A stretch of DNA of 64,000 nucleotides from an uncultured Nesterenkonia sp. (GTDB lineage: Bacteria > Actinomycetota > Actinomycetes > Actinomycetales > Micrococcaceae): assembly GCA_947494195.1 (NCBI GenBank), contig CANLUC010000001.1:1-64000 (forward strand). The letters are read 5' to 3'. The notes below the pieces were generated by a model that saw only the letters and a list, made by a program, of their open reading frames with translations, searched no databases and was not told where the DNA came from. The translations under genes and the position numbers were made by a program. Of this stretch, positions 38,485 through 42,064 are shown in pieces. The first letter of the stretch is position 1, and every line of letters begins with the position of its first letter.

Positions 38485-39144
38485 ATGAAGATCATGGCTG
38501 CACCAGCCGCCTCCGAGAACGCCATCACCGCGAGCCTGCTCTACGCCGTGGGCTCCGGCAGGACCCCGAGCAGCGAGGCCCCGGAGCTTTCCGTCGAGAT
38601 GCAGGAGACCATCGCGGCGGTGTTGCAGGACCAGGGCGCGGAGGACCGGATGACTCGAGTCGTGGAGGCTGTGCGCGCGGGCTACGAGGCCGTCAGCGCT
38701 GACGCCTCGCTGACGATCTCGGCCCAGCGCTACGACACGCTGCGTCGCGAGTTCCTCGCCGAGGCCGGCACCGGGCGGAACGTCTGGCCGGTGGGCTCCA
38801 CGACGATCCTGAAACGCGCTGGGGGTTCGTGGAGCAGCGCGCTGGGCCGGGCCGGGATGTCCGCCTCCACGAGGAAGCGGGCCTCCGGCTTCGGGGCAGC
38901 GCGGTTCACCGACGAGCAGTACCGAGCCGCGGTCCGCGATTTCACGCGTGCCGCCGCACAAAAAGGCTCCAGCACGAGCTATCAGAACTATCTGGCCTGG
39001 CGGAAGCGCAGCCAGGAGCAGGGTCGCAGCGATCTGCCCTCCGGTCCCAGTCTGCGCAACACCTACGGCAGCTGGAGCGCAGCCCTGCAGGAGGGAGAGG
39101 GTACGGCACCAGGCCCGGGGGTGACGCGGGGAGGTCAGGACTAA
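38485..39144 (+). CDS. Protein with two homing-endonuclease-associated (HNH_repeat-like) repeats
   Basis: A 219-aa protein of unknown function. Two repeats of the pattern Y-x3-R, then P-S/T, then GSW-x2-AL-x2-AG are visible. Repeat 1 runs from about 76 to 125 (QRYDTLRREF ... GGSWSSALGRAGM). Repeat 2 runs from about 137 to 207 (EQYRAAVRDF ... YGSWSAALQEGEG). This pattern is known from DNA-binding repeats attached to HNH homing endonucleases. No H-N-H nuclease core is visible here, so the protein may be a stand-alone DNA binder. The start is ATG 38485, with a second ATG at 38494. It converges on the photolyase-like gene with a 4-bp overlap. Confidence 0.7.
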   Translation: MKIMAAPAASENAITASLLYAVGSGRTPSSEAPELSVEMQETIAAVLQDQGAEDRMTRVVEAVRAGYEAVSADASLTISAQRYDTLRREFLAEAGTGRNVWPVGSTTILKRAGGSWSSALGRAGMSASTRKRASGFGAARFTDEQYRAAVRDFTRAAAQKGSSTSYQNYLAWRKRSQEQGRSDLPSGPSLRNTYGSWSAALQEGEGTAPGPGVTRGGQD

Positions 39145-40790
39145 GGGGCGGGGTGCAGCAGCCGGGTCGGCTGGGAGGGTTCCAACAGGTCGGCTGCGCG
39201 GCGGTGGTGGTTCTCGCGCGTCTCGTGCTGCATCTTCTCCAGCAGGGAGACGACCATCTTCGCGCGGGGATTCGCTGCGAAGACCTCGCCATGATCCCGG
39301 ATGAAGGTCCAATAGAGCCCGTCCCAGTCGGCGGTCCAGTCCCCGGTGGGCAGGTCTGACATCTTGCGCAGGTAGTTGCTGCCGGAGACATAGGGTTTGG
39401 TGGTGATCGCCTCACCGGCGGCGAACTGGCTCATCGCGTAGACGTTGGGGACCATCACCCAGTCATAGGCGTCGATGAAGAGCTCCATGAACCACTCGTA
39501 GACCTGCTCCGGATCGATCCGCAGCAGGGACATCGCATTGCCGAGCACCATGAGCCGTTCGATGTGGTGGGCATACCCGGTGGCCAGCACCCGTGAGATC
39601 ACCAGGTCTACGGGCGCCAGGCCGGTGTTCGCGTCCCACCACCCCTCCCCCAGACCGTTGTGGTGGCCGAGCCGATTGGCGCTTCGCACTGCGCGGCCAC
39701 GGACCCGGTAGGTGGCCCGCATGTATTCGCGCCAGCCGATGACCTGCCGCAGGAAGCCCTCCACCGAAGCCAGCGGGGTGTCCTCGCGGGCGCCGTCGAG
39801 CACTGCCTGGACCACCTCCCGCGGGTCCAGCAGCCCGATGTTCAGCGGCGGGGTCAGCAGACCGTGCGCGATGAACGGGTGCTCTGCGGAGATCGCGTCC
39901 TCGTAGGGTCCGAAGTCATCGAGCCGGTCACGGACGAACTCCTGCAGATGCGCACGCGCGTCCTCGGCGGTGATCGGCCAGGCGAACTGCGTCGGGTCGC
40001 CCGGGGCGTCGGGGAACTCCTCGGTCACCCAGGTGATGGCGGCAGCGACGTCCTCCGCCGCGCCGTCGTCGTCGCTCTGGCCGGCGTCAGGACCGTCGGC
40101 CGCCTGGCCGCTGGCAGCGCCGTCGTCGTCGTTGTTCTCGGTCTGGCCCATGAGGGCTTCGAGGTCGAACATCGGCTCCCGCTGCACCACCGGGTGGTCC
40201 GCGAAGCGACGCACCACAGCAGGGGTGTAGCCGCGCGGGAGCTTCTTGCGGTTCTCGGCGTCGAAGGACCATCGACCGCCCACCGGTTCCCCGTCGGCGT
40301 CCAGCAGCAGGTTCAGCCGGCGGCGCTGCCACACGTAGAACTCGTGCATGCGGCTGTCGTGCTCAGCGAACCATTTCTTGATCTGCGCCCGGCTGGTGAG
40401 GAAGTTGGGCGTCTCCAGCACATCCTCGTCGCGGAGCCGGTAGCCACCCTCCGCGAGCGCCGCGAACAGCTGCTGCTCCAGCCAGTCATCGACCACGTCG
40501 AAGAGACTCACCCGCGCGGGACGCCGCTCCGCGATCAGGGCGGCCAGCTGCTCGTGCGAGCTGCGCGAGGCATCGCTGCCCAGGTCCTTCACCGCGAACC
40601 CGCGCCGGCGCAGGCTGCGCGCGAAGTGGGCCATCGACGCCCGGTGCAGCACCAGCTTCTGCGCGTGGAAGCGGTATTGCCGGAACAGCAGATCGTGCTC
40701 GATCAGCACGAACACGGTCTCCGCCGGGGCCTGGCGATGCTCTGCGAAGAGCTGGTGCGGCAGGACCAGGCGCAGCTCAGGCCCCGTCAC
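39141..40790 (-). CDS. Bacterial (6-4)-photolyase/cryptochrome-like protein (FeS-BCP family) lacking cysteines
   Basis: A 549-aa flavoprotein-like member of the prokaryotic (6-4)-photolyase group. The N-terminal antenna-type Rossmann domain starts LRLVLPHQLF. The C-terminal FAD-binding helical domain has VIGWREYMRATYR, HHIERLMVLGNAMSLL, YDWVMVPNVYAMSQFA and KPYVSGSNYLRKMSD. In the family the region after KMSD normally carries clustered cysteines of a [4Fe-4S] cluster; here it reads LPTGDWTADWDGLYW, and the whole protein contains no cysteine. An extra Asp/Gly/Ala-rich acidic insert of about 35 residues sits near residue 225. The GTG start at 40790 overlaps the preceding FAD oxidoreductase stop (GTGA). 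It may be a DNA repair enzyme or a light sensor. Confidence 0.85.
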   Translation of the reverse strand: MTGPELRLVLPHQLFAEHRQAPAETVFVLIEHDLLFRQYRFHAQKLVLHRASMAHFARSLRRRGFAVKDLGSDASRSSHEQLAALIAERRPARVSLFDVVDDWLEQQLFAALAEGGYRLRDEDVLETPNFLTSRAQIKKWFAEHDSRMHEFYVWQRRRLNLLLDADGEPVGGRWSFDAENRKKLPRGYTPAVVRRFADHPVVQREPMFDLEALMGQTENNDDDGAASGQAADGPDAGQSDDDGAAEDVAAAITWVTEEFPDAPGDPTQFAWPITAEDARAHLQEFVRDRLDDFGPYEDAISAEHPFIAHGLLTPPLNIGLLDPREVVQAVLDGAREDTPLASVEGFLRQVIGWREYMRATYRVRGRAVRSANRLGHHNGLGEGWWDANTGLAPVDLVISRVLATGYAHHIERLMVLGNAMSLLRIDPEQVYEWFMELFIDAYDWVMVPNVYAMSQFAAGEAITTKPYVSGSNYLRKMSDLPTGDWTADWDGLYWTFIRDHGEVFAANPRAKMVVSLLEKMQHETRENHHRRAADLLEPSQPTRLLHPAP

Positions 40791-42064
40791 GCCGCGAGGA
40801 GCCTCGACACGGTCCGTGCGGCCCGGTCGCCCGAGACCATCGCCCCTTGGATGGAGCCGTTCTTCCGGTGATCTCCGGCCACCAGGATGCGCGCGCCGAC
40901 GCGTTCGGGCCCCTGGTCCACCAGCGGCGGCGGCATCGCGGGCAGCGTGTGTGGGACCACGTGATGGATGAGCATCTCCCAGTCCCGGGTGGAGGTCTGG
41001 TAGAGCCGTTCGAGGTCGCGGCGCACAGCGCCCTCCTCCGCGAGCCCGTCGGGACGGTCCAGCAGCGTGGTCGCCTGGATGAGGTGCTGTCCCGCCGGGG
41101 CGTAGGAGGGCGCCGCCTGGGAGACCACGGCGGTGTTCCAGATCGGTCCCGCGGGTCCGCCGCCTGGTCGCGAGGCGTCGAGCATCAGGAACGGCCCGGA
41201 CCGAGGCAGCTCTGGGGCGCGGAACCACCAGGTGGTCAGGCCATGGGTCTCCCCGGCCGGATGGTCGGCGAGGTCGCCGCCCAGTTCGCCCAGCTGCTCC
41301 ACCCCGACCGCGACGACGGCGGCGCGCGCCCGCAGCGTGCCGCTGTCGGTGCTGACCTCGACACCGGTGCCGCTGTGCCGCAGGTCCCTGGCGGCGGTAC
41401 GCAGCCGCACCGGGTCCCCCAGCGACCCGGCCATCTGTTCGGGCAGCGCCTGCATGCCCTCCTGGGGCAGCCCGGGGGTGCCCAGGGCGAAGTAGCGGAC
41501 CAGCATGCGCACGTAGGCCGCGGAGTTCTCTCCGGTGCTGTCGGCGAGGACCCCGGCCAGGAAGGTGTCGAGCACGTCACGGCGCAGTCGGCCCGTCAGG
41601 CCCACCGCGTCCAGCGAGGCATCGAGCGTCTGGTCCAGGTCCTCGGTCGAGGATCCGCCGACACCGGGGAGGCGGGGAAGGCCCGGGGCGATCCAGCGTG
41701 CCAGGGCGAGCAGATCGGTCGCCGGGGTGTGCCGGCTCCGCAGGGTGGCCAAGGCGTGCTGCGGGTGGCGCAGCGGATGGGCCAGGGTGGTGGTGCCCCG
41801 CCCGTTCCGGATGACCGCGCCGACGCCGAATCGCTGCAGTCCCAGCGCCGGGACGTCGATCCATTCCCGCACCGCCGAGTAGGCAGGGTTCAGCACCTGG
41901 AAGCCTCGGTCGCAGCGGAACCCGTCCACGACGTCGGTGCGCACCCGGCCACCCACGGCATCCCCGGCTTCGAGCACCGTGACGGCGTGGCCCAGGCGTT
42001 GCAGGCGTCGAGCTGTCTGCAGGCCGGCGAGCCCGGCTCCGATCACGATGACGTCGGCGTCCAT
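40787..42064 (-). CDS. FAD-dependent oxidoreductase (amine oxidase / desaturase-like)
   Basis: A 425-aa flavoprotein. The dinucleotide-binding motif IVIGAGLAGLQTARRLQRLG and the following EAGDAVGGRVRT are exactly those of the monoamine oxidase/protoporphyrinogen oxidase/phytoene desaturase superfamily. The C-terminal FAD-binding block is ILVAGDHRKNGSIQGAMVSG. The substrate is unknown. It is translationally coupled (GTGA) to the photolyase-like gene downstream, so the two products may act together. It is 30 bp from the YjdF-like gene upstream. Confidence 0.88.
   Translation of the reverse strand: MDADVIVIGAGLAGLQTARRLQRLGHAVTVLEAGDAVGGRVRTDVVDGFRCDRGFQVLNPAYSAVREWIDVPALGLQRFGVGAVIRNGRGTTTLAHPLRHPQHALATLRSRHTPATDLLALARWIAPGLPRLPGVGGSSTEDLDQTLDASLDAVGLTGRLRRDVLDTFLAGVLADSTGENSAAYVRMLVRYFALGTPGLPQEGMQALPEQMAGSLGDPVRLRTAARDLRHSGTGVEVSTDSGTLRARAAVVAVGVEQLGELGGDLADHPAGETHGLTTWWFRAPELPRSGPFLMLDASRPGGGPAGPIWNTAVVSQAAPSYAPAGQHLIQATTLLDRPDGLAEEGAVRRDLERLYQTSTRDWEMLIHHVVPHTLPAMPPPLVDQGPERVGARILVAGDHRKNGSIQGAMVSGDRAARTVSRLLAA

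Follow-up and report, generated by a model that had tools for sequence, protein, structure and literature searches.

A probable cluster-free (6-4)-type repair photolyase without cysteine in an uncultured Nesterenkonia

Can a photolyase whose closest solved relatives bind a [4Fe-4S] cluster do without any cysteine and still repair DNA, and is such a protein an exception within its family? The question is raised by a gene at positions 39141 to 40790, reverse strand, of a 64,000-nucleotide stretch (the window) of contig CANLUC010000001.1, from an uncultured Nesterenkonia sp. (assembly GCA_947494195.1). A first-pass annotation of the letters alone had described its product as an FeS-BCP photolyase that had lost its cluster, and proposed either that repair proceeds without the metal or that the protein has become a light or redox sensor. 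We regard the protein as a conventional cluster-free (6-4)-type repair photolyase, with a probability of about 0.78. The features on which the argument rests are as follows, with residue equivalences taken from alignment.

39141..40790, reverse strand: cluster-free prokaryotic (6-4)-type photolyase, 549 residues, GTG start, stop codon included
40185..40772, reverse strand: N-terminal DPRP domain (Pfam PF04244), residues 7-202, the antenna-holding domain in PhrB
40062..40151, reverse strand: acidic, low-confidence interdomain linker, residues 214-243, of differing length among members of the genus and missing in many relatives
39612..39614, reverse strand: Pro393, which takes the place of cluster ligand Cys350
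39564..39569, reverse strand: His408-His409, equivalents of PhrB His365/His366 (PMC4619345)
39309..39359, reverse strand: shortened cluster-site loop, residues 478-494 (SDLPTGDWTADWDGLYW), which holds the clade-specific Trp485, Trp489 and Asp490

The reading frame is open throughout and its 549 residues include no Cys, as had been reported. Pfam recognises DPRP (9.5e-50) and FAD_binding_7 (1.7e-07), both above cut-off, and no further domain; in the source genome the DPRP family matches this gene only, and the FAD-domain family (FAD, flavin adenine dinucleotide) has two matches. The solved relatives found by sequence, a profile search included, are FeS-BCPs (9hnk, 9q8f, 4dja, 5kcm, 5lfa, 8ijy, 7ykn and 3zxs), and all 8 distinct sequences from the sequence search carry four cysteines. 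Our residue statements derive from one MAFFT alignment, with PhrB numbering transferred from an Agrobacterium pusense row (L217), shifted to place its cysteines at 350, 438, 441 and 454. By this alignment all four ligands are absent from the window protein: Cys350 is replaced by Pro393, Cys438 by Pro481 and Cys454 by Ala487, and the Cys441 column is a gap. Three of these ligands sit, in FeS-BCPs, on a loop that the window protein has in a form shorter by about ten residues; the position of the fourth is the proline. The motif KPYVSGSNYLRKMSD and the short loop LPTGDWTADWDGLYW in the cluster region are thus as first described.

The same state recurs well beyond this protein. From 230 proteins, 201 distinct homologues were aligned (6 short sequences were dropped, and the remainder were identical), of which 78 have all four ligand cysteines, 123 lack the set, and none has two or three; as a cluster-free query supplied 80 of the loci, being the best 80 of at least 542 relatives (at least 592 stretches matching the pattern), the ratio of 123 to 78 is not a prevalence. 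No Cys occurs in the ligand columns of 122 of the 123 rows, the remaining one (L062) has a single Cys in the Cys454 column, and the Cys350 column is Pro in all 123. A tree of 100 of the 201 rows, thinned by identity and stripped of the ligand columns, was built by a quick method with support from the Shimodaira-Hasegawa-like approximate likelihood ratio test (SH-aLRT) only; 37 of its rows have a letter make-up unlike that of the alignment and deserve less trust. One branch, with 99% SH-aLRT, parts 68 cluster-free rows from 32 FeS rows. As the tree is unrooted, gain and loss of the cluster are indistinguishable within it. The site of Pro393 is Pro in 68/68 cluster-free rows and Cys in 32/32 FeS rows, and Trp485, Trp489 and Asp490 each occur in 66/68 of the former and 0/32 of the latter. 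The two exceptions, L044 and L045 (genomes G485 and G587; family f19, same order), have a second type of cluster-free loop, MGSWWSSGREAKESAFTDAYW in L044, likewise without ligands. Their branch is deep and distinct, lying between the FeS rows and the remaining cluster-free rows, on the cluster-free side of the branch above; a 99% branch likewise sets the other 66 cluster-free rows apart from L044, L045 and the FeS rows together, and the pair may or may not represent a second, independent loss. Tyr493 occupies the PhrB Tyr460 site, where Tyr is kept in 43/68 cluster-free tree rows; a 2015 study noted that the FeS-BCP proteins without this Tyr, 7% of the total, also lack the cluster cysteines (PMC4619345).

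Sampling of genomes agrees with the tree. In a draw from the family (Micrococcaceae) the gene was found in 39 of 295 genomes, with the cluster-free motif in all 39 and the FeS form in none (37 aligned; 2 with incomplete or broken frames judged by motif only), and a sequencing error or frameshift that hides a cysteine segment, which the first-pass annotation had named as a possible refutation, is accordingly very unlikely. At order level, 55 of 75 matching genomes were read, giving 30 FeS, 24 cluster-free and 1 broken frame; at phylum level, 46 of 48 gave 43 FeS, 2 cluster-free and 1 that was not aligned. Named cluster-free records include Arthrobacter, Pseudarthrobacter, Micrococcus, Tersicoccus, Nocardioides, Bacteroidota, Planctomycetota, Verrucomicrobiota, Acidobacteria and Ignavibacteria. 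A comparison with 50,697 phage records (E 1e-5) gave no phage-borne relative. One record labelled Vibrio cholerae 35D (L165, WNZI01000022.1) holds an Arthrobacter-like photolyase, and that assembly is probably mislabelled or contaminated.

A class of this description is already in print. Among 110 prokaryotic 6-4 photolyases, a 2022 survey places 20 in a subgroup M, which includes Prochlorococcus PromaPL and is the sole subgroup without the four cysteines (PMC9178010); several orthologues that miss the cluster cysteines are also mentioned in PMC12082625. The window protein resembles subgroup M, PromaPL and cluster-free Synechococcus Phr2 (PMC9426592), as these are described in print, in its PhrB-type N-terminal domain and FAD domain, in having none of the four ligands, in a distribution over several phyla and in lacking the ABG-type electron chain (Phe434, Phe438 and Met446 in the window). 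The source genus differs in adding the acidic linker. Kinship with FeS-BCPs and the shortened cluster loop stand, but the protein is not an exceptional FeS-BCP: the cluster-free state is normal for the described class to which it belongs. The first-pass annotation had itself conceded that membership of a photolyase class that never has the cluster would speak against its reading, and such a class exists, as the 68 tree rows and the published subgroup attest.

The complete lack of cysteine carries less weight than it first appeared to. Across eight neighbouring genes of the window, Cys accounts for 15 of 2315 residues (0.65%), and 3 of the 8 have none; at this rate about 3.6 would be expected in 549 residues, with a Poisson chance of zero of about 3%, and the homologous region is free of Cys in 22 of the 123 distinct cluster-free rows, counting the window protein. 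Zero cysteine is therefore a weak signal; it largely reflects a low-cysteine background and is only mildly unusual. A lone loop Cys is present in 18 of the 123 rows, next to Trp485 in 17 of them and in the Cys454 column in L062. It usually follows Trp485 directly (GxWC), in several phyla (for example L172, L174, L184 and L207).

What has been kept is the equipment for repair. Equivalents of PhrB Asp179, Asp254, His365, His366, Trp390, Tyr424, Tyr430 and Trp401 are present in 68/68 cluster-free tree rows; in the window protein His409 corresponds to His366, which is essential for repair in PhrB (PMC4619345), and Asp177 and Asp298 to the Mg2+ aspartates Asp179 and Asp254. The Trp342 site is Trp in 46/68 and Tyr in 21/68 of these rows (67/68 together) and is Trp385 here. 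Phe434 and Phe438 stand at the PhrB Tyr391 and Tyr395 sites, and Met446 is the residue near flavin N5, a Phe/Phe/Met combination typical, according to PMC9178010, of most proteins in subgroups other than A, B and G; although Phe434 for Tyr391 and Met446 for Glu403 set the protein apart from PhrB, both are also common in FeS members (Phe 15/32, Met 27/32). An AlphaFold2 model built from 53 sequences has a mean predicted local distance difference test score (pLDDT) of 93.7 and a predicted template modelling (pTM) score of 0.92, and residues 471-500, at the former cluster site, score 96-98 per ten-residue block. In Foldseek the 11 best chains are all FeS-BCP entries, with TM scores of 0.78-0.82 by query length. 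With the FeS-BCPs (PhrB 4dja, CryB 3zxs, Caulobacter 9hnk, Vibrio 7ykn/8a1h and SePhrB 8ijy) the window protein shares the predicted fold, active-site His, Mg2+ aspartates, lesion tyrosines and medial Trp, but it lacks all four ligands and the full-length loop. The acidic insert noted earlier near residue 225 is present, at about residues 214-243; it is the sole stretch of the model with ten-residue blocks under pLDDT 70, and only 219-224 and 226-229 fall below 50. Its length and sequence vary within the genus, and a functional domain there is supported neither by the model nor by this variability. Where it begins, certain positions (HP, MFDL) are also seen in relatives.

On this basis, FAD bound in the C-terminal helical domain would be reduced by way of a chain of Trp residues (Trp385, Trp433) and, once excited, would pass an electron to an ultraviolet (UV) lesion, presumably a (6-4) product, held by His408/His409, Tyr467, Tyr473 and the Mg2+ aspartates. 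The region that the [4Fe-4S] cluster pins in FeS-BCPs would be held metal-free, with a shorter ligand loop and the clade-fixed Pro393, Trp485, Trp489 and Asp490 at the site. Because Cys-to-Ser mutants of PhrB were insoluble or unexpressed (PMC4619345), the cluster-free branch must presumably stabilise this region in another way, and these four residues are candidates for doing so.

Several observations weigh against our reading. None of the 8 distinct solved sequences that were found is cluster-free. The insolubility or missing expression of the PhrB mutants implies that cluster-free folding needs a compensation which we deduce here from conserved residues; L044 and L045, by their sequences, are cluster-free and yet lack the Trp485/Trp489/Asp490 signature; and the lone loop Cys of 18 of the 123 rows, though too few to hold a cluster, may have a role. 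Synechococcus RS9916, which supplies the experimental evidence on a cluster-free relative, belongs to subcluster 5.1. In PMC9426592 (2022) picocyanobacterial Phr2, equated with PromaPL and without the cluster in Synechococcus subcluster 5.1, is argued to be probably a cyclobutane pyrimidine dimer (CPD) photolyase, since the characterised (6-4) members carry the cluster. A CPD or dual-activity enzyme, with (6-4) specificity confined to the FeS branch, would follow from that argument, which joins the missing cluster to a UV-B phenotype: survival of an RS9916 phr2 mutant is about 1000-fold lower, and phr2 gives E. coli nearly tenfold, light-dependent protection (PMC9426592), results that also speak for the repair photolyase proposed here. 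The authors of that study nevertheless call for in vitro tests, their deduction being drawn from the missing cluster and survival, and the source genome encodes another photolyase homologue that could cover CPDs. This is a separate gene on contig 6 (G000:C6) for a protein of 462 residues with the superfamily's FAD domain. In NCBIfam it scores highest against the 8-HDF-type and class I photolyase models and next against DASH, without reaching a curated cut-off; the window protein itself scores only 18-20 bits against class I models. We consider CPD repair by the window protein unlikely.

The sensor proposed at the outset fares worse. Regulatory roles are described for CryB, an FeS relative from Rhodobacter (PMC9178010), and the photolyase gene overlaps a flavin oxidoreductase gene, both of which would suit a cryptochrome-type light or redox sensor that had lost repair; but the protein has no additional Pfam domain, its catalytic, lesion and Mg2+ residues are intact, and a cluster-free relative confers light-dependent survival (PMC9426592). 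No positive sign of a sensor role was found, regulators around the locus not having been searched for systematically, and of the two alternatives first offered it is cluster-free repair that the retained residues favour, a sensor being in our view very improbable. Least credible, to the point of being almost negligible, is a recent loss of the cluster confined to the source lineage, with a degenerating protein. Presence in only 39/295 family genomes implies that the gene is readily gained or lost, and one family genome (G014; L035/L056) has a broken frame. Against this, members of Bacteroidota, Planctomycetota, Verrucomicrobiota and further groups share the state, and where the ligands would be they have fixed residues. 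A constraint that grouped 30 cluster-free rows of actinobacterial type with 26 FeS rows, mainly from Actinobacteria, was 140.6 log units worse (p-AU, from the approximately unbiased test, 0.0008), the groups having been named after the tree was seen, with L170 (a Patescibacteria record) included and L044, L045 and L042 left out. A local loss in Actinobacteria is thus rejected under this model.

The antenna site of this probable repair photolyase departs further from PhrB. Lys45 and Glu31 are kept, but the Glu37-Arg108 salt bridge is replaced by Leu35 and Trp103, the D-loop His43 by Phe41, and the apolar pocket floor has His49 in place of Ile51, so that neither the salt bridge nor the His43 associated with 6,7-dimethyl-8-ribityllumazine (DMRL) in PhrB is found by alignment. 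With salt bridge, D-loop and floor residues all replaced, DMRL binding exactly as in PhrB appears unlikely; the antennas of subgroup M are left open in PMC9178010. It is doubtful, though conceivable, that the cluster-free branch is a distinct class defined jointly by a metal-free lock (Pro393, Trp485, Trp489, Asp490) and its own non-DMRL antenna pocket (Phe41, His49, Trp103).

The remaining features concern the neighbouring gene and a deazaflavin locus elsewhere in the source genome (L274, G000:C3:394500-408000), for which positions are those within L274.

40787..42064 of the window, reverse strand: FAD-dependent amine-oxidase-like protein, 425 residues, upstream gene and probable operon partner of the photolyase
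L274, 2318-5317, forward strand: cofGH, FO (7,8-didemethyl-8-hydroxy-5-deazariboflavin) synthase
L274, 5314-6822, forward strand: flavin monooxygenase-like (FMO-like) protein, with a 4 bp overlap with cofGH
L274, 6819-7844, forward strand: cofD
L274, 7846-8673, reverse strand: cofE

In the window the end of the amine-oxidase-like gene overlaps the photolyase start by 4 bp (GTGA), and at 9/9 other loci of the genus and in several other Micrococcales the gene immediately upstream of the photolyase, in the same orientation, is a homologue; the product of the window gene is weakly HpnE/CrtI-like, below cut-offs. On a haloarchaeal plasmid an FAD-dependent oxidoreductase gene also adjoins a photolyase, a likeness of annotation and position. 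Convergent with the photolyase, at 38485-39144 on the forward strand, is a gene for a 219-residue protein with a homologue at 7/9 other genus loci and no Pfam or NCBIfam match.

The source-genome CofGH keeps the CofG radical S-adenosylmethionine motif (CRDRCHYC), but in its CofH half the CxxxCxxC motif is missing, as is part of the loop. This variant occurs in 4 genomes (the source, G283, G218 and G096), in all of which a monooxygenase homologue lies less than 1 kb downstream; the canonical form, CYTGCRFC, is present in four other genomes of the family, and at the two of their loci that were searched (L244 and L245, with short flanks) no such monooxygenase was found. A single title-level search returned no title on this pairing. 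Altered CofGH and monooxygenase may possibly constitute a new deazaflavin route. If the cluster-free branch were indeed such a distinct class with a non-DMRL antenna, the antenna of the source genus could conceivably be a non-standard deazaflavin made by this enzyme. That alteration makes it unsafe to deduce an 8-hydroxy-5-deazaflavin (8-HDF) antenna from the presence of an FO synthase.

As a single finding the protein is ordinary; being cysteine-free and confidently modelled, it is a convenient representative of the cluster-free branch. The role that the [4Fe-4S] cluster plays in prokaryotic (6-4) photolyases was called elusive as recently as 2025 (PMC12082625), and a large sister branch evidently able to dispense with the cluster offers a natural control for that question.
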